Below, piece after piece: positions 16,585 through 56,546 of a stretch of DNA of 64,000 bases. The position numbers and the translations under genes were made by a program. The stretch is from Rhodospirillaceae bacterium. Its GTDB lineage: Bacteria; Pseudomonadota; Alphaproteobacteria; Rhodospirillales; Rhodospirillaceae. The stretch lies in assembly GCA_028822445.1 (NCBI GenBank), contig JAPKDQ010000003.1, positions 186,001 through 250,000 on the forward strand. The letters are read 5' to 3'. Numbering within the stretch: position 1 is the first letter of the stretch; the number at the start of each line of letters is the position of its first letter. The notes under the pieces are model-generated. The model saw only the letters and a list, made by a program, of their open reading frames with translations, did not search any database and was not told the origin of the DNA.

Positions 16585-17610
16585 ATGCGCTCATTTACCT
16601 GGTATATCGGAATTGGCATCCTGTTCTGGATCGTTCTGGCCATTTCGATTCCAAGTGAAGGTGCAGAGGACGACTTCGTGGGCACTGTAGGTGCTGCAAC
16701 ATTCCCTGGTGACATTGGCGAGCGCATCTGGCTCGATTACGAAAAAGAGGTTCTAGCTCGCTCGAACGGTGAAGTGCGTCTGCGCATGCTGATCCGTGGC
16801 GAAGCTGGCGGTGAAGAAAGTCGGATGCCGTCCCTGCTACGTGGCCGCGTTCATGTTTCCAGCTTCAGCGACTCGGGAATGTCACGGGTAGTATCGGAAT
16901 TCGGCCTTCTTACGGCGCCGTTCCTGTTCGATAGCGTTGGAGAAGTACATTTCGTTGTCGATAACTATCTCAAAGAACCATACGCAGCGCTCGCCGAAGA
17001 CAAAGGGTTCATCATCCTGAATTGGCAAGACGTCGGGTGGCTCAATATATACGGCGGCAAACCGTTGCTGACGCCGTCAGACACCGCCGGCTACCGCATG
17101 CGGTCATTGCAGTCGACAGCGTCCATTCTCTTTTTGCAGGCTATCGGCGCCGACGTCATTCATATCCAGCGGACAGAATTGGTATCAAGCCTGCAGACGG
17201 GTTTAGTTGAAGGCGGTGAGTCCAGCCTGATTCTCTATGCCAGTGGCGGAGAAGCCGAGTACGCACGGCATATGACCCGCACGCGCCACGCCAGACAGTT
17301 TGGATTTAGCATTGTTAATCGGCGCTGGTACGAGCGCCTCTCTCCTAAAAACCGAAACATTATTGCGACGGGTTTTGGGCCTGAGACCACGCAACGCAGC
17401 ATGGCCATTGAGATGCTACGCGGTGAAGAAGCCCGCCTTGCAGAGATTGGTGCTCAGGTTCACAGGTTATCAGGTGACCAGCGACAAAGGTTCAGGGACG
17501 TTGCTCAACCCAATCAGCGCGCTCTGGTTGACGAGGTCGGTGGCAAAGCTCAGGAGATTATGGACCTCATCGTAACGGGCAAGGCAGCCTACGCGCGACA
17601 AGCTCAATAA
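16585..17610 (+). CDS. TRAP transporter solute receptor DctP, orphan copy 1
   Basis: 341 residues, N-terminal signal ('IGIGILFWIVLAISIPSEGAE'). TRAP DctP-family pattern: 'LRMLIRGEAGGEESRMPSLLRGRVHVSS', 'APFLFDSVGEVHFVVDNYL', the ligand carboxylate-binding arginine region 'GYRMRSLQST' (about 170), 'LVSSLQTGLVEGGESSLILY' (about 200) and the C-terminal helix 'EIMDLIVTGKAAYARQAQ'. DctP receptors bind organic acids for Na+-driven uptake by DctQM. No DctQM is adjacent. Upstream is the divergent alcohol-dehydrogenase operon; the stop lies 3 bp from the stop of a convergent small gene. One of six related receptors in this window. Confidence 0.9.
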   Translation: MRSFTWYIGIGILFWIVLAISIPSEGAEDDFVGTVGAATFPGDIGERIWLDYEKEVLARSNGEVRLRMLIRGEAGGEESRMPSLLRGRVHVSSFSDSGMSRVVSEFGLLTAPFLFDSVGEVHFVVDNYLKEPYAALAEDKGFIILNWQDVGWLNIYGGKPLLTPSDTAGYRMRSLQSTASILFLQAIGADVIHIQRTELVSSLQTGLVEGGESSLILYASGGEAEYARHMTRTRHARQFGFSIVNRRWYERLSPKNRNIIATGFGPETTQRSMAIEMLRGEEARLAEIGAQVHRLSGDQRQRFRDVAQPNQRALVDEVGGKAQEIMDLIVTGKAAYARQAQ

Positions 17611-17613
17611 CGA

Positions 17614-17976
17614 CTAGGACCCTTTGTCGTCGTTCGAAAACCTATCTACTAAGGAGTCATACTCTGCCTCAGACGCCACATTTGGGTCATTTGCAGCAGA
17701 AATAATACGAAACACACGGTCCAACATGCCTGCCCGCCCTGCTTCGCGTTCATCTTCCACCGCATCGTCTGGCCTATAACCTTCAATTTCTTCCGGGGTC
17801 GCCACCGTGCCAGCCGCCGCTAGACGTTCATGGGTGTCAACGCGATCCTTGAGCACAGACACCTCACCGACCAAAGCCGTGACCATGGCCAAGAGCTTAT
17901 CCGAGTCGGCCGTATCTAAGAAAAAGGGCCGCCGCCCTTTTGCCGTGCGCTGCCGCGGCTTGCTTGCTCCAGCCAT
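17614..17976 (-). CDS. Small coiled-coil protein paired with methyltransferase, copy A
   Basis: 120 residues, strong RBS (GGAGGCTTAGAGT). No family recognised. The core 'TALVGEVSVLKDRVDTHERLAAAGTV' is predicted helical with heptad spacing; the N-terminus is basic ('KPRQRTAKGRRP') and the C-terminus acidic. It is clearly homologous to the protein at 51134-51460 (shared KG[RK]RP, AL..EVSVL.DR.DT.ER, GTV, PD). Both copies lie beside a methyltransferase of one distinctive family: here divergently, there downstream. A binding partner or regulator of the methyltransferase is an inference from this repeated linkage. Confidence 0.75.
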   Translation of the reverse strand: MAGASKPRQRTAKGRRPFFLDTADSDKLLAMVTALVGEVSVLKDRVDTHERLAAAGTVATPEEIEGYRPDDAVEDEREAGRAGMLDRVFRIISAANDPNVASEAEYDSLVDRFSNDDKGS

Positions 17977-17996
17977 ACTCTAAGCCTCCTAACATT

Positions 17997-18026
17997 GGTC
18001 AGCGTGACCGACCTTTGAATTATAAT
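17997..18026 (+). promoter_or_regulatory. Candidate promoter and operator of methyltransferase A
   Basis: TATAAT at 18021-18026 would put the transcription start near 18033. It overlaps the ATG at 18025, arguing that this ATG is not the translation start. GGTCA-N3-TGACC (17997-18009), an operator-like inverted repeat, covers the -35 position between the divergent small gene and the methyltransferase. Confidence 0.4.
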
Positions 18027-18099
18027 GTGGTACTATTGTATTATGACTGCAGGCTTGGTGATAGTGTCACCTGAAAAGGCTATCAAAAGGATGCTCGTA

Positions 18100-19215
18100 A
18101 TGCGCAATAATTCAGATCACGCCATGTTCGCAGACGCCACGCACGACGAACAAAGTGCACAGAGCTTTATTAAAACGCTTCGAGTATTCAGCACACGTAA
18201 CTTCCACGGCGGTAATGAAGCGATCTTGAAGGAAAAGGTCCTCTCGAAATATGCTGACGGAGAATGCCCACCCCGACGCGAAATGCGTATTGCTCTAGAA
18301 GACGAGCCACATAATCGCTGGTGGAGCTCATTGATGCGCACGACGCAAGAAATGCTCTACGACACGGTCGGCCCAAGCATTGAGCGGCAACTACCTAATC
18401 TGATCGAACGTGCCAAATCACTGCGCGGAAAGTTAGGGTCATTGACGCTAGACGACAAAGTAGACGTACCTCCCTATTTGTCTTCCGTGGATAATCATTG
18501 CAAACCAGGCAGCTACCACCAGGAAATAATCGACGATGACGTCTTTGCCGGTGCAGAGTTTGACCGCACGTTCCGTCTTTATGCGATGGGCGGCCTCGGA
18601 CCCAACCTGGACGATATGGGATTCACCCTGATAGCTTGGCTACGCAATCACTTCGGAGAGATCGGTCCAAAACGCATTCTCGACATGGGGTGCACAGTTG
18701 GTCATTCCACACTTCCATACTGCGATCTTTACCCCGACTCTGAAATTCACGCTATCGATGTGGCTGCAACCTGCCTCAGGTATGGGCATGCCCGCGCGGT
18801 AGCGATGGAGAAGGAAGTACACTTCTCGCAACAGAATGCCGAATATACAAACTTCGAAGACGGAAGCTTTGACCTAGTCGTTTCGCACGCTGTTTTGCAT
18901 GAAACATCCCACCGCGCGATAAGGGCGATTTTCAAAGAGTGCTACCGCCTTCTCTCACCCGGCGGACTAATGATTCATATGGATGGCATCACGCCAAACA
19001 AGCCCTTTGATAAATATTATTCAGATTGGATGTCCGTAAATAATAACGAGCCTTATCTCGGCACCGTTCAAGACGAAGACTTTGTCAGCATCTGCACTCA
19101 AGCTGGTTTTTCCAAAGAGAACGTATCGCTCGGAGAGGCTGAGCCGCAGTTCATTGGCAAAGCAAGCGACGACAAGCCAGTCAGCGGCTATCTGGTGGTT
19201 AGCGCACAGAAGTGA
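18100..19215 (+). CDS. Class I SAM-dependent methyltransferase with novel N-terminal domain, copy A
   Basis: 371 residues. N-terminal helical domain of about 150 residues with 'RTTQEMLYDTVGPSIERQLPNLIERAK' and 'VPPYLSSVDNHCKPGSYHQEI'. Rossmann methyltransferase domain after about 190: motif I 'RILDMGCTVGHST', 'EIHAIDVAATCLRYGHARA', 'FDLVVSHAVLHE', 'ECYRLLSPGGLMI'. The ATG at 18100 is preferred: RBS AAAAGG at 18085-18090, while the upstream ATG (18025) overlaps a -10 box. The same architecture recurs at 49936-51117. The cysteine/histidine motif '(V/I)PPY...D.HC.PG.Y' is shared by both and is not part of the common methyltransferase fold. Substrate unknown. A GTGA overlap couples it to the next gene, a TRAP receptor. 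Confidence 0.85.
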   Translation: MRNNSDHAMFADATHDEQSAQSFIKTLRVFSTRNFHGGNEAILKEKVLSKYADGECPPRREMRIALEDEPHNRWWSSLMRTTQEMLYDTVGPSIERQLPNLIERAKSLRGKLGSLTLDDKVDVPPYLSSVDNHCKPGSYHQEIIDDDVFAGAEFDRTFRLYAMGGLGPNLDDMGFTLIAWLRNHFGEIGPKRILDMGCTVGHSTLPYCDLYPDSEIHAIDVAATCLRYGHARAVAMEKEVHFSQQNAEYTNFEDGSFDLVVSHAVLHETSHRAIRAIFKECYRLLSPGGLMIHMDGITPNKPFDKYYSDWMSVNNNEPYLGTVQDEDFVSICTQAGFSKENVSLGEAEPQFIGKASDDKPVSGYLVVSAQK

Positions 19216-20255
19216 GTCAGCCGTATAGACTTCTCATAGGCTTTTTTCTCTTAGCCGCAACAGCTTCTAGCGAAGACCTCTCTGCGGAAACTATCAATAT
19301 GGTTTCGCTCGTCCCTGGTGAAGGACAACTCAGAGATAAGTTTGTCGCAACGGAAAAACGCCTAGAATCCGGCTGGGTCGGGACTGCCGACGTCGTTCTT
19401 CTGATAGACGGGCAAGTTGGCAGCGAAGAAAGCATGAGTGCAACTGTTCGTCGCGGCAGAAATCAAGTCTCCCTGCTCAGCACGCCAGGAACCTCAGCTG
19501 CCGTTCCAGAGATGAGCCTCCTAATGGCGCCCTATCTATTCGATTCTTTCGAAGAGGCAGATTTTGTTCTCGATAACTTTATTCTAGAAAAAGTGAAGGC
19601 GCTGTTCTCAGATCGAGGCCTTCATTTTATTCAATGGATCGATTCCGGCTGGTTTAACGTTTTTTCACAGACGCCCGTTCGCGTTCCCGAAGACATCATC
19701 GGGATGCGCATGCGAGCTGCCGGTGGTGCGGCTGCGCGTATATTTTTACAAGAAGCGGGAGCCGATGTCGCCCAGTTACCTTTTGCGGATTTGGTCCCAG
19801 GGCTACAAACTGGCCTGCTTTCCGGTGGCGCGACCAATACATCAATGTATCGCGCGGTCGCACTGTATGACCTGGCGCCATACATCACGTTGACCCGCCA
19901 TGGTCTCAATCCGGGAGCGGTCTTTGCAAACAAAAAATGGTTTGATGGATTAGAAAAACACAATCAAGGCTTGATCATGGGCGGCATTGCCGCGACCGAA
20001 ATCGTGAGGTCCGACGTCAGAGGAGAGGGCGTTGAGGCTCTAACGTTCTCGAAATCAAAAGGCGCTACGATCATCACCCTGTCCGCAACTGAAAGAGCCG
20101 CCTGGAAGAAAGCGGCTTCAGCCACACACCTTAAATTGATTGATGAAATCGGCGGTGAAACGGCAGCGCTATACGATCTCATTCAATCTGGTAGGTCTGC
20201 CTTTGCAGCTGGTGTGTCCGGCACCGGCGCGCCAGGTACAGACGCCTCGCGATAG
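19212..20255 (+). CDS. TRAP transporter solute receptor DctP, orphan copy 2
   Basis: 347 residues, GTG start overlapping the methyltransferase stop (GTGA), which implies translational coupling. Signal peptide 'LLIGFFLLAATASSEDLSA'. Receptor motifs: 'DGQVGSEESMSATVRRGRNQVSLL', 'APYLFDSFEEADFVLDNFI', 'GMRMRAAGGAAARIFLQEAGAD' (ligand Arg region), 'LVPGLQTGLLSGGATNTSMY', and C-terminal 'ALYDLIQSGRSAFA'. It ends with a Gly/Pro/Ala-rich tail encoded in DNA that also encodes, antisense, the end of the convergent EamA gene (73 bp overlap). The tight coupling suggests the bound solute or its product is related to the methyltransferase substrate. Confidence 0.88.
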   Translation: MSQPYRLLIGFFLLAATASSEDLSAETINMVSLVPGEGQLRDKFVATEKRLESGWVGTADVVLLIDGQVGSEESMSATVRRGRNQVSLLSTPGTSAAVPEMSLLMAPYLFDSFEEADFVLDNFILEKVKALFSDRGLHFIQWIDSGWFNVFSQTPVRVPEDIIGMRMRAAGGAAARIFLQEAGADVAQLPFADLVPGLQTGLLSGGATNTSMYRAVALYDLAPYITLTRHGLNPGAVFANKKWFDGLEKHNQGLIMGGIAATEIVRSDVRGEGVEALTFSKSKGATIITLSATERAAWKKAASATHLKLIDEIGGETAALYDLIQSGRSAFAAGVSGTGAPGTDASR

Positions 20256-22816: not shown

Positions 22817-22988
22817 ACTCCGGGCGATACTTAACGCTCTTCGCCTGTAATCAGCCCGCATTAAAACCCCAGGGAAGCGAGTAAAAATAAGGGTCATATG
22901 TCTATATGCGGTGATTAAAGAGTGGCACACTTTAGCCGCCTTGAGTGCTAATGTTAAAAGGCTTGATCCACCACACAAGGAGATAAAG

Positions 22989-23990
22989 ATGGGCCGATTT
23001 ATCGTGTTTCTTGGGTTCCTGGCCTTCGTCGGCCCAGCCGCCGCCGATGATATTGCACGCGGCAAAGTGACAGCTTTATCTCAGGTCGATTCTCCCTGGG
23101 ACCATCAATGGGATTATTTCAAAGCAAAGATAAACGAAGCTCCATCCGTAGAACTGGAATACTTCATCCGCGGCGAAGTCGGCACCGAGGAACAAATGCT
23201 GACAGCCTTGCGGCGCAACCGAGTTCAAATTGGTGGAATTACAATGTGGGGCTTAGCCGGAATTATTCCGGAATCCGCAGTCCCAATGATCCCCTTCCTG
23301 TTTGAATCGACTGAAGAAGTGGACTTCGTATTCGATAACTATTTGCAAAACCTGTTTGAAGGCTTTCTCGCAGACCGCGGCCTAGTATTTCTGGAGTGGT
23401 CTGAAGTGGGTTGGAGCAACTTGTATGCGACCAAACCTATCTTAACGCCAGTAGATGCCGACGGAATGAAGATTCGAGGGTCCCCTAACTTTGCTGCGCA
23501 GGCCTTTCTCCAATCTGTCGGTGCAGATTCCATCCCGCTTGGCACGGCAGACATTGCGCCAGCGCTGCAAACGGGCCTGGTCGACGGCGGTCTCGCAAGC
23601 ATGGTTTTCTTTTATTATGCGCTTTCTGATTTCGCGACGGACGTAACAGAAACACAGCAGTCCTACGATCAAGGCATACAGATGGCGAACAAGCAGTGGT
23701 GGGACAGCCTAAGCGCTGAACAGAAGGAAGAGATTAGAAGTGCCTTTTATCCCATCGGCCCAGCACGAGACGATATTCGTGAGTTGATCAAGAGCTTGAG
23801 GACGGACCTCATATCACGCGGCATAAACGTCCACTCTCTAACACCTGAACAGCGCAGCCAATGGGTCACAGCGACGGCCCCCTCTCACCGAGCAATATTG
23901 AATGAAATAGGGGGCGACGCAGAAAAGGTCTACGCCACAATCCTTGAAGGCAAGCAGGCATTCGCCGCCCGCCCATCTGCAGTAGAATAA
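22989..23990 (+). CDS. TRAP transporter solute receptor DctP of the complete TRAP operon
   Basis: 333 residues. The frame is open from 22911, but ATG 22989 has a strong RBS (AAGGAGATAAAG) and starts a clean signal peptide 'MGRFIVFLGFLAFVGPAAA'. Motifs: 'LEYFIRGEVGTEEQMLTALRRNRVQIGG', 'IPFLFESTEEVDFVFDNYL', 'GMKIRGSPNFAAQAFLQSVGAD', 'IAPALQTGLVDGGLASMVFFY', 'VYATILEGKQAFAARP'. It is followed after about 110 bp by DctQ and DctM genes, the only permease genes in the window, so it is the presumed native receptor. The ligand is probably an organic acid. It is most like the receptor at 39833-40843 (both have SPWDHQW/SVWDEHW and YFI[RY]GE). Confidence 0.92.
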   Translation: MGRFIVFLGFLAFVGPAAADDIARGKVTALSQVDSPWDHQWDYFKAKINEAPSVELEYFIRGEVGTEEQMLTALRRNRVQIGGITMWGLAGIIPESAVPMIPFLFESTEEVDFVFDNYLQNLFEGFLADRGLVFLEWSEVGWSNLYATKPILTPVDADGMKIRGSPNFAAQAFLQSVGADSIPLGTADIAPALQTGLVDGGLASMVFFYYALSDFATDVTETQQSYDQGIQMANKQWWDSLSAEQKEEIRSAFYPIGPARDDIRELIKSLRTDLISRGINVHSLTPEQRSQWVTATAPSHRAILNEIGGDAEKVYATILEGKQAFAARPSAVE

Positions 23991-24101
23991 CGCCATACCG
24001 TTCAAAAAGCTCGCGGGAGCGTCGTCAATCGGTTGCAACACTGACCGCAGTGGATAAGATGCAGGCCAAGTCGTAACACTGTCATCGTTTGGGGACTTAC
24101 C

Positions 24102-24677
24102 TTGCGCACTGCAAAGACCTTCTTGAACTACCTCCGCATCTTTGAGCAAAGCCTCTGCTTTATCGCCTTTATGGTGATGGCTGGTGCGTTGATGGGCGAT
24201 GTGTTGCGGCGCGAGTTCACAGGCTCAGGCTGGTTTGGTGCCCCACAGGTCGGCGTCGTTGGTATGGTAGTGGTCGCTTATATGGGGGTTTCACTTGCCT
24301 CAGCAAACGGGTCACATTTCCGACCAAAGTTTGCCGATATTATCCTGCGCCGCTGGGACCGGCTTGCCAACCAAATCGGTGAATTTGGTTTTGCAATCTT
24401 CTGCTACTTTATGTCCTACATCGCATTCGGCGTATCCGTCGAAAGCTTCGAACTCGATGACGTGTCAGCCGTCTTGCGTTGGCCGATCTGGCCGGTTCAA
24501 GGCGTCATTGTCATGGGCTTCGGGCTGGTCGCCGTGCGCCACACTTTGTATGGCATCTTTGTTGACCTCCGCCCGCTTCCACTAGAATCGGTTGAAGGCG
24601 TTGAGATCGCGACAGACAAAGAAGCAAAGGACATCACCGACGGTGAGCAGGACTATCAGCAGGAAACCAACCGATGA
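24102..24677 (+). CDS. TRAP transporter small permease DctQ
   Basis: 191 residues with four transmembrane helices: 'SLCFIAFMVMAGALMGDVLRREF' with the DctQ-typical D-V-x-R-R-x-F after TM1, 'VGVVGMVVVAYMGVSLASANGSHFRPKF' (the A..GSH.R pattern of the family), 'FGFAIFCYFMSYIAFGV' and 'VQGVIVMGFGLVAVRHTLYGI'. TTG start. The acidic tail ('ATDKEAKDITDGEQD') is longer than usual. Its stop overlaps the DctM start (ATGA). It forms the membrane complex with DctM. Confidence 0.9.
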   Translation: MRTAKTFLNYLRIFEQSLCFIAFMVMAGALMGDVLRREFTGSGWFGAPQVGVVGMVVVAYMGVSLASANGSHFRPKFADIILRRWDRLANQIGEFGFAIFCYFMSYIAFGVSVESFELDDVSAVLRWPIWPVQGVIVMGFGLVAVRHTLYGIFVDLRPLPLESVEGVEIATDKEAKDITDGEQDYQQETNR

Positions 24678-25987
24678 GCGGTCTTCTGCTCGCAGTCATT
24701 CTCATCGCTCTCTTGATTCTGCGGATGAACATTATTGTCATCCTCGGCGTCGCTACGTACTGGGCTTACTATTTCTGGGGCGGCGGGGAGTTGATGAATG
24801 TCGTCTACGACATGTGGGACGCATCGAACCGAGAGGTTCTTCTCTCCATCCCACTCTATATTCTTGCTGGCTCGATTATGTCTCAGGGCTCGATCGCTGA
24901 GCGCCTAATTCTGCTCATGCGATCTTTGACCAAACCTATTCCAGGTGGCCTAGCCATCGCAGGTTTGCTTTCCTGCGGAGTGTTCGCGGCAATTTCTGGA
25001 TCATCCGCCGTCACGTTGTTGGCGGTTGGCTCAATTATGTACCCAGCCCTTATCCAAGAAGGCTACTCGCGCCCCTTCTCGATCGGCATGCTCTGCGCCG
25101 GCGGAACGCTTGGAATTATCATCCCACCATCGATTCCGCTAATTCTATACGGCGTGATGACGCAGACATCGATTGCCGATCTGTTCCTCGCAGGAACCGG
25201 CCCGGCGGCCCTACTGCTGATCGTACTGAGCCTTTACGCCATGACGGTCAATTGGTCCAAGAGGGGCGCAATTTGGGACGGCGATGAAATCTGGAGCACC
25301 CTCAAGGGGGCCAGCTTTGCTCTCATGACACCCGTCGTCATTCTGGGTGGCATTTATTCTGGTTACTTTACGCCCACTGAATCCGCTTCCGTTGCCGTGC
25401 TGACGGCTCTAACCGTTGAAATTCTGGCTCACAAACGTGGCTTAATGCATTTGATAACGGGCCGCTTCTCAGAGTTATGGGTCACACTTAAAGAGGCTGG
25501 CCAGCTGGTTTGGCGCGTTGTCGGTGACACATCGACGCTGATGGGCAGCCTATTCCCGATCCTTGCCATCGCATTGTCGCTTAATGTGTTCATGACCTAC
25601 GAACAGGTGCCAGGAAAAATTGTCGAGGCGATGACTCTCTTCATCGATTCAAAACTCTTGTTCCTGCTCATGACCAACTTGCTCCTGTTAGCTGTTGGCC
25701 TATTCCTAGATATCGGCGCTGCAATCCTAATTCTCAGTCCGTTACTGCCGCCGATGGCGGCCGACTACGGCATGGATACAATTCACTTTGGCATCATGAT
25801 GATTGTGAACCTAGAAATCGGCTACCTGACACCGCCCATGGGCCTCAACATCATCATTGCCATGGGGGCATTCCGTGAAGATTTCCTGACAATTGTCAAA
25901 GGAGTCATCCCGTTCATTCTGCTGATGCTATTGTGCTTGATCGTCGTCATGTTCGTGCCCTGGCTATCACTGTTCCTCATTAGTTAG
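24674..25987 (+). CDS. TRAP transporter large permease DctM
   Basis: 437 residues, about 12-13 hydrophobic segments, full family length. Hallmarks: 'SIPLYILAGSIMSQGSIAERLI', 'SCGVFAAISGSSAVTLLAVGSIMYPALIQEGYSR', 'CAGGTLGIIIPPSIPLILYGVMTQTSIADLFLAG' (the GTLGIIIPPS motif), 'ATPTESASVAV'-type 'FTPTESASVAVLTA', and 'IGYLTPPMGLNI'. The Na+-driven transport subunit of the TRAP system. The start overlaps the DctQ stop. Being the only DctM here, it could serve more than one of the six receptors, although cross-use is inference. Confidence 0.95.
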   Translation: MSGLLLAVILIALLILRMNIIVILGVATYWAYYFWGGGELMNVVYDMWDASNREVLLSIPLYILAGSIMSQGSIAERLILLMRSLTKPIPGGLAIAGLLSCGVFAAISGSSAVTLLAVGSIMYPALIQEGYSRPFSIGMLCAGGTLGIIIPPSIPLILYGVMTQTSIADLFLAGTGPAALLLIVLSLYAMTVNWSKRGAIWDGDEIWSTLKGASFALMTPVVILGGIYSGYFTPTESASVAVLTALTVEILAHKRGLMHLITGRFSELWVTLKEAGQLVWRVVGDTSTLMGSLFPILAIALSLNVFMTYEQVPGKIVEAMTLFIDSKLLFLLMTNLLLLAVGLFLDIGAAILILSPLLPPMAADYGMDTIHFGIMMIVNLEIGYLTPPMGLNIIIAMGAFREDFLTIVKGVIPFILLMLLCLIVVMFVPWLSLFLIS

Positions 25988-48574: not shown

Positions 48575-49786
48575 TTGGGAGATTTAAGCGATTTAAATCA
48601 CGACCGCGTTATTATTGTGGGCGCTGGACCCGTTGGACTGGTCGCGGCCCTGCGGCTGGTTCGGGCAGGTATTCCGGTCGTTGTGCTAGAAGCAGCGGGA
48701 GAGCCTCATGCGGAACCACGGGCGTCCACCTTTCACCCCCCGACCGTTGATCTATTGGACGAGCTAGGCCTGGGTGCACGCCTGGTAGAGCTGGGCCGTC
48801 CAGCCCGGACATGGCAGTACTGCATGTTCGAAACAGGCGAGCGGGCCATCTTTGACCTGAGCGTTTTGGAAAATGAAACGAACCACCCCTACCGACTGCA
48901 ATGCGAGCAACTGCACTTGGTGAAAGAAGCCGCCAAGATGCTCGATGCCGAACTCTCCGGCGCATTGATATTCAACGCCAAGGCATTGCGCGTTCGCCAG
49001 GATGAAGACGGAGTTGCGGTTGACGTAGAGATTGAGGGCACAGAGACCACACTTCAGGGGCGATGGCTGATCGGTGCGGATGGGGCAAGTAGCGTTGTCC
49101 GAAAACACCTCGGCTTGGGCTTCGAAGGCGAGACCTACCCAACCGCATCCGTTGCCATTGGCACACCCTTCGCCTTTGAGAAGCATATTCCTGATCTGTG
49201 CGGCGTTAATTACTTCTGGGCAGATGGCTGGTCCTTCAGCATGTTCCAGACCAAGGATATGTGGCGCGTCGGCTATTCTCCGCCTCCTGATATGAATGCC
49301 GTGGCCGCAGTGGCGGATGACGAAATACAAATGCGGCTCGCACACATCCTGCCGAGCATCGGCCCCTTTGAGATCATAACTGCGCGGCTTTACAGCGTTC
49401 ATCGCCGATTAGTAGAGAAGATGCGCGTTGGCCGCATGTTGCTCGCCGGCGATGCCGCTCACTTGAATAGTCCATCTGGGGGTTTTGGCATGAACGGCGG
49501 TGTTCACGATGCCTTTAACCTTGCGGATAAGTTGATAAAGGTCTGGGGTGGCGGTGACGATACCCTACTCGATCTCTATGCCCGGCAACGGCATTACGCC
49601 GCCAGCGCGGACATCCAGAAGACGTCTGACGCAAACCATAAACGCCATCGCGAGAAAGACCACGGTCGCCGACTGGAGACACTCAAAGCTATGCAAGAGA
49701 CCATAAGCGACGAAAAGGCCGTGCATAACTTTCTTAGGGAATCATCTCTGATGAACTCTCTAGAGCGAGCGAACGCTCTGACCTAA
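48575..49786 (+). CDS. FAD-dependent monooxygenase (PHBH/TfdB type)
   Basis: 403 residues, TTG start with RBS AAGGAGACAAAG. FAD motifs: 'RVIIVGAGPVGLVAALRLVRAGIPVVVLEAA' (G-x-G-x2-G), 'GRWLIGADGASSVVRKHLGL' (DG motif), 'GRMLLAGDAAHLNSPSGGFGMNGGVHDAFNLADKL' (GD motif). It is shorter than TfdB-type phenol hydroxylases and lacks their C-terminal thioredoxin-like domain. Hydroxylates an aromatic or polyketide-like ring using NAD(P)H and O2. First gene of the co-oriented cluster running to 55224. Confidence 0.92.
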   Translation: MGDLSDLNHDRVIIVGAGPVGLVAALRLVRAGIPVVVLEAAGEPHAEPRASTFHPPTVDLLDELGLGARLVELGRPARTWQYCMFETGERAIFDLSVLENETNHPYRLQCEQLHLVKEAAKMLDAELSGALIFNAKALRVRQDEDGVAVDVEIEGTETTLQGRWLIGADGASSVVRKHLGLGFEGETYPTASVAIGTPFAFEKHIPDLCGVNYFWADGWSFSMFQTKDMWRVGYSPPPDMNAVAAVADDEIQMRLAHILPSIGPFEIITARLYSVHRRLVEKMRVGRMLLAGDAAHLNSPSGGFGMNGGVHDAFNLADKLIKVWGGGDDTLLDLYARQRHYAASADIQKTSDANHKRHREKDHGRRLETLKAMQETISDEKAVHNFLRESSLMNSLERANALT

Positions 49787-49935
49787 GGGCTTACGCAGAG
49801 GCTGTTTCGTTCTCTGACGACACGCAAACTACTTGGCCCAGCCCACCCAGAATTCCAGGCGCACCCTGCCCAGACACTTTGCCAATGGGTTTGAGCGATA
49901 GTAGTGTGAAAGACTACAAACCTCCGGAGAGCCGC

Positions 49936-51117
49936 ATGCTTCAGCAAGAACGCCACGCCGTACTGCCGCAACCATCTTTGAGCGAGCAGGCTCGGCAAGA
50001 TTTTTTGAACCAGCTGGGCAAGCATGTTCTCAACGAGATAACGCCAGGCAACGCCGCCGCATACCAACGGCGTGTTCTTCCGCGTATTCGCGCTGAAAAG
50101 GGCCGGGATCCAGAAACGCGCCACGAAATTCGCAAAGCGATGGTCGCCGACCCCTACTACCAAATCACAAGCTCATTCCAACGCACAGTGCAGGAAATGA
50201 TGTGGAACTCGGTCGATGATACTATCCAACGGCAATTGCCAGAGCTAATCGAAACAGCGAAGAATATTCGCGAAGGCGATACCATTGGATCCCTCCATCT
50301 TGACCCCGACTTTGTTATTCCACCCTACGTCGCCGAGAATGATCATCACTGCATGCCGGGCGGATACTCGGGCGACCTGTGTGAAGATGACATCACAGCC
50401 GGAGCTCTCTACGACAAAGGCGCATTTATCTATACCCAGGGCCTGTTTGGCCCCCGCATGGACGGCATCGGCAAAGCAACAGCCATGATGTTCGCCCGGT
50501 GCTTCCCCGAGATGAAGCCACAAAAGATTCTGGAAATTGGCTGCACTGCCGGTGGCTCAACAACCGGGTTGAAATTGGGTTTCCCAGATGCGGAAATGCA
50601 CGCCATTGACGTCGGTGCAGCCGTTTTGCGCTACGGTCATGCCCGCGCAGAGAGCCTAGGTGTGCCAATTCATTTCCACCAAATGAATGGCGAAGACCTG
50701 CTCTTTGAAGACAATACCTTTGACTTCGTCAACTGCCCGGCCTCATTTCATGAGATGTCACGCAGCGCCGTCTACAACGTTTTTGAAGAAGTGCACCGCG
50801 TTCTTAAACCAGGCGGCGTGTTCCTCATGTCGGAACTCCCCCCATACGAAGGGCAAGACCCTTGGACACAGTTCATTCGGGACTGGGATACCTACAATAA
50901 CAATGAGCCCTTCTGGGGTGCCGTTCACGAACTCGACTTCGCTGAAGTTGCTGAAAAAGCCGGGTTTAGCCGTGACGATTATTGGGCCGGCACCGGGCCT
51001 GGCATTGCTGAAGCCAACGAACTCACTGGCGCAGTCGAAGTTCAGAATAGGAAATTTATGGGTTCAACTCGGGGCGGTGGCAAAGCATGGTATGTCCATG
51101 TAACCAAGCGCGCCTAA
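49936..51117 (+). CDS. Class I SAM-dependent methyltransferase with novel N-terminal domain, copy B
   Basis: 393 residues; the frame opens with TTG at 49879, but ATG 49936 has RBS GGAG. N-terminal domain: 'FQRTVQEMMWNSVDDTIQRQLPELIETAK', 'VIPPYVAENDHHCMPGGYSGDLCEDDITAGALYD'. Methyltransferase: motif I 'KILEIGCTAGGSTTG', 'EMHAIDVGAAVLRYGHARAESLG', 'FDFVNCPASFHEMS', 'EVHRVLKPGGVFLM', 'RDWDTYNNNEPFWGAVHELDFAEVAEKAGF'. Homologous over its whole length to the protein at 18100-19215. The conserved 'D.HC.PG.Y' suggests a special site in the N-domain. The downstream small gene is the homolog of the small gene next to copy A. Confidence 0.87.
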   Translation: MLQQERHAVLPQPSLSEQARQDFLNQLGKHVLNEITPGNAAAYQRRVLPRIRAEKGRDPETRHEIRKAMVADPYYQITSSFQRTVQEMMWNSVDDTIQRQLPELIETAKNIREGDTIGSLHLDPDFVIPPYVAENDHHCMPGGYSGDLCEDDITAGALYDKGAFIYTQGLFGPRMDGIGKATAMMFARCFPEMKPQKILEIGCTAGGSTTGLKLGFPDAEMHAIDVGAAVLRYGHARAESLGVPIHFHQMNGEDLLFEDNTFDFVNCPASFHEMSRSAVYNVFEEVHRVLKPGGVFLMSELPPYEGQDPWTQFIRDWDTYNNNEPFWGAVHELDFAEVAEKAGFSRDDYWAGTGPGIAEANELTGAVEVQNRKFMGSTRGGGKAWYVHVTKRA

Positions 51118-51133
51118 CACAAACGGTTGATCG

Positions 51134-51460
51134 ATGACTGATAAAATTGCGACCCCGCGCCCCTCAAAGGGAAAGCGGCCCCAGTACTTCGATGATCCCA
51201 ATATGGATCAAATGCATTCGATGATTATTGCTCTAGCGACGGAAGTCTCTGTTCTGACAGATCGCTTCGACACCATTGAACGTATTCTTGATGAAAAAGG
51301 CACGGTCAGCCGTGCTGACATTGAATCCTGGGAGCCGGACGAAACAACCTGGAATGAGCGGCGTGAGAATAGAGAGCAACTGATACGGCGCTTATTTAGG
51401 GGCGTGCGTGAAAGCCGCACAGCCCTTGAAGGGCACGACACTCCTGTAGACAAACAATAA
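51134..51460 (+). CDS. Small coiled-coil protein paired with methyltransferase, copy B
   Basis: 108 residues, 16 bp after the methyltransferase stop. N-terminus 'PRPSKGKRPQYFDDPNMDQM', helical core 'ALATEVSVLTDRFDTIERILDEKGTV', then 'IESWEPDETTWNERRENREQLIRRLFRGV'. Homologous to the 120-residue protein at 17614-17976. No known family. The arginine-rich amphipathic C-terminal helix is a further shared trait. Probably a partner or scaffold for the methyltransferase. Confidence 0.75.
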   Translation: MTDKIATPRPSKGKRPQYFDDPNMDQMHSMIIALATEVSVLTDRFDTIERILDEKGTVSRADIESWEPDETTWNERRENREQLIRRLFRGVRESRTALEGHDTPVDKQ

Positions 51461-51473
51461 GGAGCTACACCAC

Positions 51474-52322
51474 ATGCCACGTCCACACATTGAGTTTATT
51501 CAGGCGCAAGCCGTTCGGTGGCATACCCTAGGCGAAGATATGTCTCGCCCTGGAGCGGAAGCTAAGCCCTTAAGTCACGACGCAGATTCCAAAGCCATAA
51601 CCGCCATCCTGCGATATCCCGCAGGATGGTATTTAGAACAAGACCATCACCTGGATAGCGATGAAGAGCTTTACGTCCTATCCGGAACAATCGTCATTAA
51701 TGGCGTGTCATATGAGGAAGGCAACTACGCCTATCTCCCAGCTGGATACCCGCGACACACTATGACGAGTGAGGCAGGCGCAGATGTGATGACGTTCTTT
51801 GAAGGCCCGCACAAACGGGTTCCGGGACCGGCGCCAGATGGGTTCTACGATACCACAAATTTGGTTCAACGCATCCAGACAAAATCCGCCGAGTGGGGCA
51901 GCGCAACAGACCCCAAAGTGATGGCCCCAGGTGTAAAACGCCTCGGTCTACGCAAAGACCCAGACACAGGCGATGCCACGTGGCTGTTAGATATTGATGA
52001 GACAGGCATGACCGGTGAGGTAAACCGGCTGGAGACACACCCGGTCGTCGAAGAGGTTTTCATTCTCTCTGGAGAAATGCACATGCCCATGGGTGTGCTT
52101 AAAGAGGGTGCCTATTTCTGGCGCCCACCTGGGATTCCACACGGACCGGTAGGCACAAAGACCGGCTCTCTCGGCCTGTTTCGTTGCAAGGGTGGGCCGC
52201 TCACTACGGACTGGTCAGAAGACCCACACCCTGTCCAATGGAACGCACCATACGAGCCCTTCCTTCCAGATACCCTAGCAGGCAGTCTTTTGCCTGACTA
52301 CGATTCAACTTTGCCTTACTAG
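51474..52322 (+). CDS. Bicupin protein
   Basis: 282 residues, RBS AAGGAG, 13 bp after the small gene. Two cupin modules. Module 1: 'YLEQDHHLDSDEELYVLSGTIVINGVSYEEGNYAYLPAGYPRHTM', with metal ligands H, H, E and H in place. Module 2: 'NRLETHPVVEEVFILSGEMHMPMGVLKEGAYFWRPPGIPHGPV', with H, E and H. Could be a metal-dependent dioxygenase or isomerase; DUF4437/ChrR-like cupins look similar. Its place in the cluster suggests it acts on the same molecule as the monooxygenase and methyltransferase. Confidence 0.87.
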   Translation: MPRPHIEFIQAQAVRWHTLGEDMSRPGAEAKPLSHDADSKAITAILRYPAGWYLEQDHHLDSDEELYVLSGTIVINGVSYEEGNYAYLPAGYPRHTMTSEAGADVMTFFEGPHKRVPGPAPDGFYDTTNLVQRIQTKSAEWGSATDPKVMAPGVKRLGLRKDPDTGDATWLLDIDETGMTGEVNRLETHPVVEEVFILSGEMHMPMGVLKEGAYFWRPPGIPHGPVGTKTGSLGLFRCKGGPLTTDWSEDPHPVQWNAPYEPFLPDTLAGSLLPDYDSTLPY

Positions 52323-52417: not shown

Positions 52418-54115
52418 ATGTCAGAAAAAATCCGTAAGGGATTCATCAACGTTGGGGCAGGACAGGTTCATTATCGGGCAGCAGGGTCTGGCCCGCCTAT
52501 AATATTGCTTCATGATTCTCCCCGGTCATCTGTTCTCCATGCGCCGTTGGTTGAACACTTTTCTGACCACTTCACCACGATTGCGATCGACACACCGGGA
52601 TATGGAAACTCCACAGCCCTCCCGTCTGAACCACGGCCTGAGATTGCTGATTTTGCCAACGCCTTAGCAGAGACGATTTTGAGCTTTGGCGTTGAACGTT
52701 GCCCTGTCTATGGCTTTCACACCAGTTCTAAAATTCTTTTAGAATTTGCGGCCAGCCACCCTGAACGTGTCGCCGTTGCGATTATGGACGGCTTATCGCT
52801 GCCAACCGGCGATACGGATCATGCATTTATCAATAGCTACATGAGCCCATTCAAGGTGACGGCGACTGGTAGCTATCTTGCTGAAGAATGGACGCGTATC
52901 CGTGATTTTCAACGGTGGTTTCCGTGGTTTACAAAAAGCAAAACAACACGAATGCAGATGGCGCAACGCGACACAAAGTACATGCAAGATTACAGCATGG
53001 ATCTTTTCATGGCTGGGCCAAACTTCTCAGACGCCTATTCCGCTGCTATGCGTTACAAGGCCGTTCCCGTTGTGCCAACGCTTTCGGCACCCTGTGTGTT
53101 TATGGCCAGAGAGGATGACGTGCTCTACGCCTTCCTTGATGCACTACCTGACCCTTTGCCCAAAGGCAGCAGCATCGAGCGCCTCTCACCAAACAGAGAC
53201 GCTTGGAAGAAACGGTTGGGTGAGATTTTCACCGAGCACGCCGATTTCGATGGCGCCGAAAAATTCTCTCCGCCAGACCCCTTAAAGAATCCGTTGGGTG
53301 GCGGCATGGTGACGCGTGGATATGTCGACACGGGCCATGGCCAGATTCTGGTCCGTCGCGCCGGACAAGGAGATAGCACACCACTAGTCTTCCTGCACGA
53401 TTTGCCAGGAAGCGCCAGAGCCGATGAGAGCTACTTAAAATCCCTTGGTAGAGGTCGGGCCGCATTTGGATTGGATTTGCCAGGCTGCGGCGATTCAGAT
53501 GCACTCGAGAAAATTGATGCTGCCAGCTACGCGGCAGCGGTGATTGCCGCGACTGGTGCTCTCGGATTGGATAAGTTTGACCTGGTTGCAAACGGTCTCA
53601 GCACATTAATTGCTTTGACTGTCGCAGGCCAATATGGCGCTCGCGTCAACCGTCTTGTCCTCGACGGCGTCACGCTACCAGATGCTGACCTGTGCGCAGA
53701 GATGAAAGTCAATTATATGCCTGATTTACGACTGCAGATGGACGGTACGCACCTTCATCGCGGTTGGCACATGCTCCGCGATCAGTCTATTCAATGGCCA
53801 TGGTACGACGGCGGCATTAAGGCCACGCGGAAAATAACTCCGGACATTGATCCACAGGCCTTACACACACGGTTGGTCGACACGTTGAAGCAATCGAATC
53901 ATGCCGGCGATGCCATTACCGCTGCGCTCAGTGCGGATGGACGAACGGCATTGGGGCAAATCTCTACTCCAACGCTTGTCTTTAAAACCGACGACGACGT
54001 TCGATACCAGTGGGCCGATGGTGCGGCGAGCGCATTATCAAACGGCACAACATTAGACAGGCCCGCTGATCAGGCGGCCAGGGCCCTCGCTGTTCTCAGT
54101 TTCTTGGGGCGCTAA
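52418..54115 (+). CDS. Tandem alpha/beta-hydrolase fusion with altered nucleophile sites
   Basis: 565 residues, RBS AGGTGAG. Two alpha/beta-hydrolase folds in tandem. Half 1 (about 1-290): 'GQVHYRAAGSGPPIILLHDSPRSS', 'IAIDTPGYGNSTAL', nucleophile elbow 'VYGFHTSSKIL', where G-x-S-x-G becomes G-F-H-T-S. Half 2 (about 300-565): 'GQILVRRAGQGDSTPLVFLHDLPGS', 'FGLDLPGCGDSD', elbow 'LVANGLSTLIAL', with Gly at the nucleophile position. No clear catalytic His in 'LDRPADQAARAL'. His-for-Ser at the elbow occurs, to my memory, in a group of uncharacterised hydrolases, but I cannot check this. It may be a lyase, binding protein or pseudoenzyme. Confidence 0.83.
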   Translation: MSEKIRKGFINVGAGQVHYRAAGSGPPIILLHDSPRSSVLHAPLVEHFSDHFTTIAIDTPGYGNSTALPSEPRPEIADFANALAETILSFGVERCPVYGFHTSSKILLEFAASHPERVAVAIMDGLSLPTGDTDHAFINSYMSPFKVTATGSYLAEEWTRIRDFQRWFPWFTKSKTTRMQMAQRDTKYMQDYSMDLFMAGPNFSDAYSAAMRYKAVPVVPTLSAPCVFMAREDDVLYAFLDALPDPLPKGSSIERLSPNRDAWKKRLGEIFTEHADFDGAEKFSPPDPLKNPLGGGMVTRGYVDTGHGQILVRRAGQGDSTPLVFLHDLPGSARADESYLKSLGRGRAAFGLDLPGCGDSDALEKIDAASYAAAVIAATGALGLDKFDLVANGLSTLIALTVAGQYGARVNRLVLDGVTLPDADLCAEMKVNYMPDLRLQMDGTHLHRGWHMLRDQSIQWPWYDGGIKATRKITPDIDPQALHTRLVDTLKQSNHAGDAITAALSADGRTALGQISTPTLVFKTDDDVRYQWADGAASALSNGTTLDRPADQAARALAVLSFLGR

Positions 54116-54204: not shown

Positions 54205-55224
54205 TTGAAAATCTGGGGCCGAGTTCAATACACACTTGCGAGCCTAATCCTTCTGACTTGCCAAGATGTATCGGCAGCAGACAGAATTCCTATGACCATC
54301 GGCGCTGTATCATCACCAATTCTAAGCGCCGATAAATTTTATACACAAATGAGTGACCGGCTTGGCGGCGGGCCTGATGCACAGTTCGATGTGAAACTCC
54401 TTGTGCGCGGCGAGATCGGGTCTGACGAATCTATCTTCTACGCCATGCGCCGCGGACGCATTCAAATCGCTGGCGTTGGCGGACAATCCATCTCAACTGC
54501 GGTCCCTGAACTGGCAGTCCTTAACGCACCTTATCTTTTCGATTCCTGGGCAGAGATCGATTTCATATACGATACAGTAGTTACCCCATTCATCAATACT
54601 CTACTCGAAGAACATGGGATCGTTGGGCTCCGGCTCTATGGTGCGGCATGGCATGGCATCTATGCCAAGACACCGATTTACAAGCCATCGGATACCATCG
54701 ACATGCGCTTTCGAGCCTTAATCGACCCGGCCTCTCAACTATTTGTTCAAGCGCTAGGCGCAGATACCTTTCAAGTCGCATCAAATGAGGTGGTTACAGG
54801 GTTGCAAACGGGGCTCATTGAGGCCGGAGAAACGAGCACGCTGGTCTACAATATCAGTGGGACGTCTTACGAAGCCCCCTATCTGACGCGCACACGGCAC
54901 ACACCATCTCTCATTGCCTTAGTCGCAAACAAACGATGGTATGAAACGCTAACGACAGAGCAACAAGACATGGTCATGCAGTCTCATCCACCTACGAAGT
55001 ACTCGGGAGATGCCCTCCGCGCAGATGAAGAAAGGATACTTGCTGCAGCCGAGCACGTGACTGTCATCGAACTCACCCCTCAACAGCTCGCCGTTTGGAA
55101 GAAGGTTGGGCGGTCGACACATGGAGCGCTGATCAAGGAAGCTGGCGGGCAGGCTCAAGAGCTTTACGATATAGTTCTAAAAGCCAAAGCGAACTTCGCA
55201 GTACGGAACGCAAGAGCAGATTAA
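54205..55224 (+). CDS. TRAP transporter solute receptor DctP, orphan copy 6
   Basis: 339 residues, TTG start with RBS GAGGTGAG, signal 'ASLILLTCQDVSAAD'. Motifs: 'VKLLVRGEIGSDESIFYAMRRGRIQIAG', 'APYLFDSWAEIDFIYDTVV', 'DMRFRALIDPASQLFVQALGAD', 'VVTGLQTGLIEAGETSTLVY', 'ELYDIVLKAKANFAVR'. It ends the monooxygenase/methyltransferase/bicupin/hydrolase cluster, a second case of this receptor family linked to the same methyltransferase family as copy 2 at 19212. No permease adjacent. Confidence 0.9.
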   Translation: MKIWGRVQYTLASLILLTCQDVSAADRIPMTIGAVSSPILSADKFYTQMSDRLGGGPDAQFDVKLLVRGEIGSDESIFYAMRRGRIQIAGVGGQSISTAVPELAVLNAPYLFDSWAEIDFIYDTVVTPFINTLLEEHGIVGLRLYGAAWHGIYAKTPIYKPSDTIDMRFRALIDPASQLFVQALGADTFQVASNEVVTGLQTGLIEAGETSTLVYNISGTSYEAPYLTRTRHTPSLIALVANKRWYETLTTEQQDMVMQSHPPTKYSGDALRADEERILAAAEHVTVIELTPQQLAVWKKVGRSTHGALIKEAGGQAQELYDIVLKAKANFAVRNARAD

Positions 55225-55547: not shown

Positions 55548-56546
55548 TTAGCTACCACCCGGCTCAACCGGTTCTTGCTCAAGCGCATACATCTCAAGAC
55601 TGGACAGGCTTGGTTCTTCAAACGTTTCTGGTGGCTCGAGATATCCCGGGAAATTCTTCGCCGTGTACTCGATAATATTGTGTGGCAACTCATCGACCGT
55701 CTCAACGCCACCGGCTGTCAGGCAGTTGTAAACGCAGTGACCTGGCGCCTGGCCCATAAGCATCCACGGTAGCCATGGCGTTACCCTGTTCCATGATCCG
55801 TAATCCCGCACGGATGTCAGCTCTTCATTCTGCATGTCGTCCAAAGAAATCACATGCAGAAACATCTCTGACACACGGTTCATAGGGCCCGAACTCTCAC
55901 GCACCCATTTCTTCGGATCTAGAGCGTTCTTATAATAGAGGTGGATATGCTCCTCTAGCATCAGGCGGTCGCCTTCTACACGCCACGGCTTAAGGTATGG
56001 TTTGCGTTCCACGTTGTCGTTATTTAAGCCGCCATAGTTGGGCGGTAACGGAAAGTACTCTTCGTACTTGGTATTGAACGGATCGTTGGCCACATGAACA
56101 ACCCGAACCTTTTCTTGCGTATATGGGTTTTCCATTTCTTCCATGATCTCGCCGGTAGCTAAATCATAGTAATATCCGACTTCACGATGAAGTTTCTGCC
56201 ACCCCGGGCCATCAGTGAGCGGAACCAACTTGGTTGCACCAAAGCCACGAAATCCACAGATATCTTTCAATGGCCCGCCGGATGCCACACCCATGACAAT
56301 GCCGTCATACCAGCCAAAGCGAGATTTTTTAGGGTCAGTATTGCCGTGCAAGCGGGCAGCCGCAATCATGTTTCCGGTCTTGTCCGTCAGGTCTATATAT
56401 GGTCCGGTCAAGCTCGCACCTTCGACTTTGCGGACAGAAGCTTGGGCAGGCATAGCGCTGCCCATCGTAGCAGCGGCGGCAGCACCGCCCATCGCTATTG
56501 CCGCCAGAATCTCGCGGCGCTCTAGTGCTGGTTTTTGTTTCTTCAT
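55548..56546 (-). CDS. DUF1838 family exported protein
   Basis: 332 residues, RBS AGGAG. The N-terminus 'LERREILAAIAMGGAAAAATMGSAMPAQA' resembles a twin-arginine signal. The body follows DUF1838: 'WYDGIVMGVASGGPLKDICGFRGFG', 'YYYDLATGEIMEEMENPYT', 'EEHIHLYYKNALDPKKWVRESSGPMNRVSEMF', 'SWNRVTPWLPWMLMGQAPGHCVYNCL', 'LEPPETFEEPS'. The family has no assigned function; members often carry Tat signals, hinting at a folded or cofactor-bearing periplasmic protein. Second gene of an operon with the nitrilase, 34 bp apart. Confidence 0.88.
   Translation of the reverse strand: MKKQKPALERREILAAIAMGGAAAAATMGSAMPAQASVRKVEGASLTGPYIDLTDKTGNMIAAARLHGNTDPKKSRFGWYDGIVMGVASGGPLKDICGFRGFGATKLVPLTDGPGWQKLHREVGYYYDLATGEIMEEMENPYTQEKVRVVHVANDPFNTKYEEYFPLPPNYGGLNNDNVERKPYLKPWRVEGDRLMLEEHIHLYYKNALDPKKWVRESSGPMNRVSEMFLHVISLDDMQNEELTSVRDYGSWNRVTPWLPWMLMGQAPGHCVYNCLTAGGVETVDELPHNIIEYTAKNFPGYLEPPETFEEPSLSSLEMYALEQEPVEPGGS

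Follow-up and report, generated by a model that had tools for sequence, protein, structure and literature searches.

We analysed a 64,000-nucleotide stretch of a Rhodospirillaceae genome (contig JAPKDQ010000003.1, positions 186,001 to 250,000; hereafter the window). Within it lies a compact locus, module A, where a gene for a class I S-adenosylmethionine (SAM)-dependent methyltransferase is divergent from a gene for a small helical protein and overlaps a downstream gene for DctP, the substrate-binding receptor of tripartite ATP-independent periplasmic (TRAP) transporters (Table 1). The overlap behind the translational coupling proposed in a first-pass annotation of this DNA is borne out by the reading frames, as the GTG start of DctP A sits in the TGA stop of methyltransferase A to form a GTGA overlap. 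The methyltransferase probably starts at 18100 rather than 18025, because orthologues from five congeners align from that methionine and the congener spacers end in ATG there. The sole sigma-70-like match in the divergent spacer is TTGAAT-18-TATTAT at 18015-18044 on the plus strand (shuffles gave a mean of 0.2), and by eye the five congener spacers carry TTGAAT or TTGAGT, 18 bases and TATTAT at the same place. Gene order is retained in five of six congeners, no orthologue of methyltransferase A being detected in the sixth, and the congener modules have a DctP gene on one side and an EamA-type transporter gene, recognized by eye, on the other. Across these five congeners methyltransferase A is 84-95% identical and small protein A 73-90%; the stop/start overlap with DctP is exact in congener L188 and extrapolated in L189-L192, where the first 10-24 DctP residues are unaligned. 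Module A is under purifying selection, with dN/dS of 0.03-0.08 in the 9 of 20 comparisons with a computable dS, some near saturation. The third gene is a DctP by PF03480 (1.1e-36) and NF037995 (156 bits), its signal peptide being assigned by eye only. The second DctP gene, on the far side of small gene A, is probably outside the two-gene unit.

Table 1. Features of module A and of the related module B, in window coordinates (ORF, open reading frame; aa, amino acids; pLDDT, predicted local distance difference test score; FAD, flavin adenine dinucleotide).
Feature	Position	Strand	Evidence
Second DctP	16585-17610	+	Convergent with small gene A; kept in congeners
Small partner protein gene A	17614-17976	-	ORF; 120 aa; AlphaFold2 pLDDT 82.8; orthologues in 5 congeners
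Divergent spacer, module A	17977-18099	.	Sigma-70-like match; same spacing and second hexamer in 5 congeners
Class I SAM methyltransferase A	18100-19215	+	371 aa; ORF open from 18025; Pfam domain; AlphaFold2 model
DctP A, TRAP substrate-binding protein	19212-20255	+	Pfam/NCBIfam; GTG start overlapping methyltransferase stop; kept in 5 congeners
FAD-dependent monooxygenase (FAD_binding_3), upstream of module B	48575-49786	+	Pfam
Methyltransferase B, same family as A	49879-51117	+	ORF, Pfam, genome search
Small partner protein gene B	51134-51460	+	Codirectional, 3' of methyltransferase B
Cupin_7/DUF4437 protein, module B	51474-52322	+	Pfam
Double alpha/beta hydrolase, module B	52418-54115	+	Pfam
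DctP downstream of module B	54205-55224	+	Pfam

The large protein had been described as a methyltransferase with an extra N-terminal domain bearing a D.HC.PG.Y motif, and this description holds. DNHCKPGSYH is present, PF13649 (7.5e-19) covers residues 218-314 of the ORF, and Pfam is silent before residue 209. The glycine-rich SAM motif and the acidic residue of class I enzymes are both in place. Across an alignment of 73 rows (68 of 82 eligible rows from the named loci described below, three of four viral rows and the two window proteins, near-copies and fragments having been omitted by hand), no row departs from Gly197, Cys198, His267 or Glu268, and at least 90% have Asp220; the N-terminal motif reads DIHCMPGGYH in the consensus, with P124, H133, G137 and Y139 invariant in its region. 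The AlphaFold2 model (pLDDT 92.3, predicted template modelling score 0.92) has long helices at 15-46 and 70-107, a loop region containing DxHCxPGxYH, and then the SAM domain, so that roughly the first 185 residues form a helical N-terminal part. This part appears to have no known relative in the libraries used, because sequence profiles match solved structures no earlier than about position 160 (none before it among 60 listed of 110 matching sequences) and the listed Foldseek matches are accounted for by the SAM domain, TM-scores by query length staying at or below 0.46 across the 50 rows listed per fold library. Rv2258c and 2r3s were rejected as fold matches of the N-terminal part, with root-mean-square deviations of 14-17 over about 400 columns. 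The viral fold library returned generic methyltransferases only among 50 listed, and no NCBIfam methyltransferase equivalog (CpaM, BioC, UbiE and others) was above cut-off among the 25 of 50 matches listed (best 53.9 bits vs 180).

The partner, small protein A, is modelled with a loose N-terminus followed by helices at 23-54, 61-66, 71-96 and 103-119. Its basic N-terminus carries TAKGRRPFF at low confidence (mean pLDDT 55 for residues 1-10 and 63 for 11-20). Neither Pfam nor NCBIfam gave anything above cut-off, and no relative was found among solved structures, where the best fold match was an unrelated photosystem chain (E 0.78). An ANTAR-like antiterminator (best sequence match 1s8n, E 0.039) and PspB (E 0.038) were considered as identities and rejected as below significance. 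The family profile was built from copies in the source genome and then widened, and the small-protein alignment took 60 of 87 stretches plus the two window proteins, again with near-copies and fragments omitted by hand.

The first-pass annotation saw both families recur at 50 kb, again upstream of a DctP. The recurrence stands, in module B about 32 kb away, where the methyltransferase is 35-36% identical to A; the arrangement differs, small gene B being codirectional and 3' and the DctP following only after this gene and those for a cupin and a hydrolase. Searches of the whole source genome hit 48 places with methyltransferase B and 20 with small protein B, and iterating profiles over the stretches retrieved yielded 47 methyltransferases (45 of them aligned, two being cut by contig ends) and 24 small proteins. 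A genome profile search added a 25th small gene, with no family methyltransferase in the surrounding 12 kb. Twenty-two of the 25 small genes have a family methyltransferase less than 400 bp away. Codirectional small genes lie 3' of the enzyme gene in 12 cases (including, at 391 bp, the second member of a tandem pair) and 5' of it in 8; the remaining 2 are divergent. Small gene A is one of the two divergent cases, correctly noted as such at first reading, and this orientation is the exception both here (2/22) and in the named loci (0/74). Counted from the other side, a small gene lies within 400 bp of 21 of the 47 methyltransferases. Because each ORF was taken from its first possible start, gaps look short; measured to the conserved part of the small protein, the gap is within 60 bp in 15 of 21 pairs of the source genome (all within 172 bp) and in 48 of 80 other pairs (widest 303 bp). 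Twelve of the 47 methyltransferases, neither A nor B among them, start with a twin arginine and a hydrophobic stretch according to our own regular expression, a signal resembling those of twin-arginine translocation (Tat).

The two families also go together across genomes. In a set of 41 genomes, made up of the source and 40 kin, both families occur in the same 11, at 12-36 small proteins and 18-48 methyltransferases per genome; one more genome gave a single weak methyltransferase match, and 29 have neither. A draw of 289 genomes from the class gave 19 with both, two with the methyltransferase only (G100, G264), one with the small protein only (G047) and 267 with neither (Fisher p 1.6e-26), and the G047 match, 41 positions with two stops, is probably false. 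Among the 18 class genomes with both besides the source, the families lie within 400 bp in 13 among the matches listed and, by eye, at 473 bp in G178; by eye they are not within 400 bp among the matches listed in G067 and G266, and spacing was not judgeable in G069 and G200. In a draw of 398 genomes from the phylum the same four carry both families, 33-60 bp apart in the three besides the source, which is included in each draw. Thresholds were E 0.001 for the small protein and, for the methyltransferase, E 1e-40 in the class and phylum draws and 1e-20 in the kin genomes. Copy numbers are lower bounds, because at most 48 candidates per genome were scored among relatives, 15 and 6 in the class and 11 and 4 in the phylum.

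Two methyltransferase peptide motifs, used to collect the best 80 of at least 562 relatives, led to 79 named loci: 50 from Pseudomonadota, 19 from Cyanobacteriota, seven from Candidatus Binatota and the rest from Myxococcota, Actinomycetota and one deltaproteobacterium. Found in this way, they favour the main branch of the family, and they are not independent, since several stem from metagenome-assembled genomes (MAGs) closely related to the window's genus and, within Nostoc and within Binatota, the loci nearly repeat one another. The pair is adjacent in 69 of the 79, in at least five phyla, including all 19 cyanobacterial and all seven Binatota loci. Counted gene by gene, a small gene lies within 400 bp of 74 of 92 methyltransferases, directly 3' in 69 cases, and half of the 18 others (9) sit at contig ends. 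Eight sphingomonad plasmid records were found, and all six methyltransferases on five plasmids have a small gene; on pJE1 the pair is annotated as a class I SAM-dependent methyltransferase and a hypothetical protein, between genes for a REDY-like HapK and an FAD-dependent oxidoreductase. The pair also occurs on L115, a contig of 6.5 kb deposited as part of a Klebsiella pneumoniae MAG, where misbinning is the likelier explanation. The neighbourhood count proposed in the first-pass annotation thus upholds the linkage: the families lie together for 22 of 25 small genes of the source genome and in 69 of 79 named loci, and co-occur in 19 of 22 carrying class genomes. Small-protein homologs that usually lay far from such methyltransferases, the outcome that would have marked the linkage as a meaningless local duplication, are not what these counts describe.

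Distances between small proteins correlate with distances between their methyltransferases (rho 0.49 for 21 pairs of the source genome and 0.64 for the 80 other pairs; p 0.0005 in both, the lowest value that 1999 permutations allow), and the two proteins share joint descent. Gene adjacency and co-inheritance are both as expected of an enzyme that has a small subunit dedicated to it. A quick tree of 116 methyltransferases, drawn from 149 rows after removal of 13 outside 331-459 aa, 16 near-duplicate cyanobacterial or Binatota loci and three plasmid loci, scatters the copies of the source genome through the family. Methyltransferase B groups with two named relatives (support 98), methyltransferase A is long-branched and its placement unsure, and methyltransferases from viral contigs (L183-L186) form their own clade.

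Our preferred reading, at a probability of roughly 0.55, is that the two proteins make up a two-component SAM-dependent methyltransferase, present in dozens of copies including module A, in which the small protein serves as activating or stabilising subunit. The large subunit would be a class I enzyme with its own helical N-terminal part, and the small subunit, helical and coiled-coil-like, would come from the neighbouring gene, dock on the methyltransferase, likely on the N-terminal helices, and stabilise or activate it. A range of these enzymes, many of them flanked by a transporter and by oxidising or hydrolysing enzymes of their own, may methylate small molecules of catabolism as a capping, activating or detoxifying step; for module A, the TRAP receptor encoded by the overlapping gene may help to bring in the substrate. 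Several observations weigh against this picture. The support for contact between the proteins is genetic, and the joint-descent test cannot separate contact from joint duplication. No small gene lies within 400 bp of 26 of the 47 methyltransferases in the source genome, beside 9 of 83 named methyltransferases away from contig ends or beside the four viral-contig methyltransferases, and 3 of 25 small genes of the source genome have no adjoining family methyltransferase. Neighbour families in the source genome are varied and their near/far comparison consists of raw counts, with alpha/beta hydrolases also accounting for 4 of 110 genes at least five places away. The cyanobacterial pair follows a trpB gene, a poor fit to a purely catabolic role.

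Other explanations share part of this evidence. The small protein could be a methylation substrate or a methylation-controlled regulator, with the basic, probably disordered A-K-G-x-R-P segment modified by the neighbouring enzyme. A K/R-G-x-R/K-P motif in the low-confidence stretch of the model occurs in 68 of 80 partners outside the source genome, as this would predict, but it is missing in 5 of 5 partners of Tat-type enzymes and in 9 of 16 other pairs of the source genome, and the best fold relatives of the methyltransferase are mostly small-molecule methyltransferases; we consider such a role rather unlikely. Nor does it seem likely that the proteins never touch and that their genes simply travel together within catabolic islands by co-transcription and joint transfer. 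Sphingomonad plasmids and varied catabolic contexts do carry the unit, yet the pair stays constant from Nostoc to Micromonospora while other neighbours change, and the close spacing of the 80 outside pairs speaks against loose co-travel.

It is quite improbable, in our judgement, that the methyltransferase fold has given up methylation for another reaction or for binding only. The thought arises mainly for the Tat branch, since a Tat-like signal is found on 12 of 47 copies and SAM is not expected outside the cytoplasm; the invariant or nearly invariant SAM-site residues of the 73-row alignment, which excludes that branch, argue for a working enzyme. A local duplication without functional meaning, which two modules in one window might at first suggest, is barely credible: A and B are strongly diverged and fall in different parts of the tree (the place of A being unsure), and the linkage is not local because the pair recurs in the source genome, in named loci of at least five phyla and in the class draw.

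The Tat-like branch bears directly on the idea of a shared subunit. Eleven of its 12 copies entered the tree and, with one signal-less copy, form one starred set of 12 rows. A Tat-like start occurs in 1 of 102 methyltransferases from named, plasmid and viral loci, which favour another branch, and that sole match is probably an over-long ORF. Three paralogous small genes of the source genome belong to this branch (C16, L051:5582-5929; C5, L058:7498-7845; C20, L199:5491-5838) and differ at 1-3 of 116 residues vs 63-68 of 348 bases. When eight congener copies are added, any two of the eleven proteins agree at 109-114 of 114 residues, with 79-92% DNA identity, in contrast to small protein A, which varies between species of the genus as given above. 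Eight of the eleven directly precede a Tat-type methyltransferase, one of which is truncated at a contig end, and a Tat-like start is present in 6 of 6 congener partners; the other three (L199, L202, L204) have no Tat-type methyltransferase in the fetched stretch. The methyltransferases beside this nearly invariant protein are 48-91% alike. Selection appears to act on nearly every residue of the small protein of this branch, and its constancy beside diverging methyltransferases is expected of a subunit with several partners, other causes of constraint being possible. The SAM motif of the branch was judged by eye. Tentatively, we suggest a two-subunit platform, spread from cyanobacteria to actinobacteria, that one probably alphaproteobacterial lineage amplified into dozens of substrate-specific versions; one branch would be exported through Tat folded and loaded with SAM, with the nearly invariant small protein as a common maturation or quality-control subunit. 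This larger picture is possible but doubtful.

The neighbours of the methyltransferases are the source of the catabolic reading. Among 117 genes within two places of the 47 copies in the source genome (called by a method that drops genes overlapping a neighbour by more than 60 bases), we counted 10 of the major facilitator superfamily (MFS), seven alpha/beta hydrolases, five TonB receptors, three each of FAD_binding_2, FAD_binding_3 and FAD_binding_4, and three cupins. MFS is not among the 25 families listed for the 110 far genes (smallest listed count 2). Recurring neighbours in other genomes are FAD monooxygenases, FAD-linked oxidases, MmgE/PrpD, hydantoinase A/B, isochorismatase, cupin and old yellow enzyme (OYE)-type proteins. 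The window encodes at 55548-56546 a protein with a Tat-like start, by eye DUF1838; this family accounts for 4 of 110 far genes and its cluster lies near methyltransferases in six loci. Among L114-L168, a trpB-type gene lies directly upstream of the pair in 17 cyanobacterial loci (by gene calling; one representative was identified as TrpB), and SUI1 sits on the opposite strand in 15. TrpB was rejected as a functional partner, as the arrangement looks like a fixed chromosomal neighbourhood, and a tie between the Nostoc loci and known cyanobacterial products was considered and dropped for want of evidence.

The DctP receptor, which the first-pass annotation had made part of the system, does not follow the unit beyond this lineage. 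DctP A and B match the TRAP receptor family (DctP, NF037995) but are not regular neighbours of the unit elsewhere. The source genome has 19 DctP genes, of which only the two flanking module A are within two genes of a family methyltransferase, so that DctP accompanies 1 of 47 copies and makes up 2 of 117 near vs 2 of 110 far genes. Of the 88 other loci in the wider set, 3 have a DctP no more than four genes away. These near/far counts led us to reject DctP as a general member, and it is local to the module A lineage. The 19 DctP matches stand against seven full and two weak DctM matches, and the contig has six DctP genes, all in the window, and one DctM at 24674-25987 beside DctQ. TRAP genes of the window lie at 22911-25987, and DctP genes at 16585, 19212, 39833, 46400 and 54205. 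Orphan DctP receptors may share TRAP membrane units, and the module A receptor may feed the transporter at 24674-25987.

The proposal that no system of this composition has been described agrees with the literature we searched, mostly without subscription journals and preprints, where none was found; the unit of methyltransferase and small helical protein is apparently undescribed. Phosphoethanolamine methyltransferases (PMT; Arabidopsis and Plasmodium), RebM and CouO/NovO share the fold of the C-terminal domain of methyltransferase A by Foldseek. Profile matches begin at position 195 for AtPMT2 and 163 for Plasmodium PMT, and neither spans the whole protein. In the alignment, His267 falls on a His in AtPMT1 and AtPMT2, whose counterpart in Plasmodium PMT is a catalytic residue. 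To our knowledge, none of these systems has a small partner gene. Trm112 is a small protein common to several methyltransferases, zinc-binding and containing strands, whose partners act on rRNA, tRNA and proteins. Bud23, of the Bud23-Trm112 pair, is among the fold matches of methyltransferase A, whereas the partner described here is a helical protein that matched no solved structure and shows no sequence or fold relation to Trm112.

At Micromonospora chalcea L171:719-7777, genes for HyuA, HyuB, a bacterial microcompartment (BMC) shell protein, the small protein, the methyltransferase and a second BMC protein lie in a row, HyuA and HyuB being assigned by eye and the small protein forming the C-terminal part of a 255-aa protein. 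This unit may belong to a microcompartment. With HyuA, HyuB and two BMC shell genes beside the pair, the locus is a candidate for the ARO microcompartment loci of Actinobacteria, as far as these are described in the main text of PMC10470539, where no methyltransferase was found. SAR202 genomes, in the parts of the reports consulted (PMC5395668, PMC6946804, PMC10444878), carry many diverged copies of one catabolic enzyme family; those parts name no methyltransferase among the expansions, and here it is a two-gene unit that is amplified.

About 1.7% of the genes of the source genome (47 of approximately 2,700, estimated from 2.85 Mb) thus belong to one unnamed methyltransferase family, for whose partner neither Pfam nor NCBIfam offers a model. 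With one small protein that hardly changes while the enzymes beside it diverge, a shared subunit can be tested directly. If our reading of module A is true, bacteria may have a general two-subunit small-molecule methyltransferase, and its copy number and neighbours suggest that the unit helps to decide which organic compounds these bacteria use.

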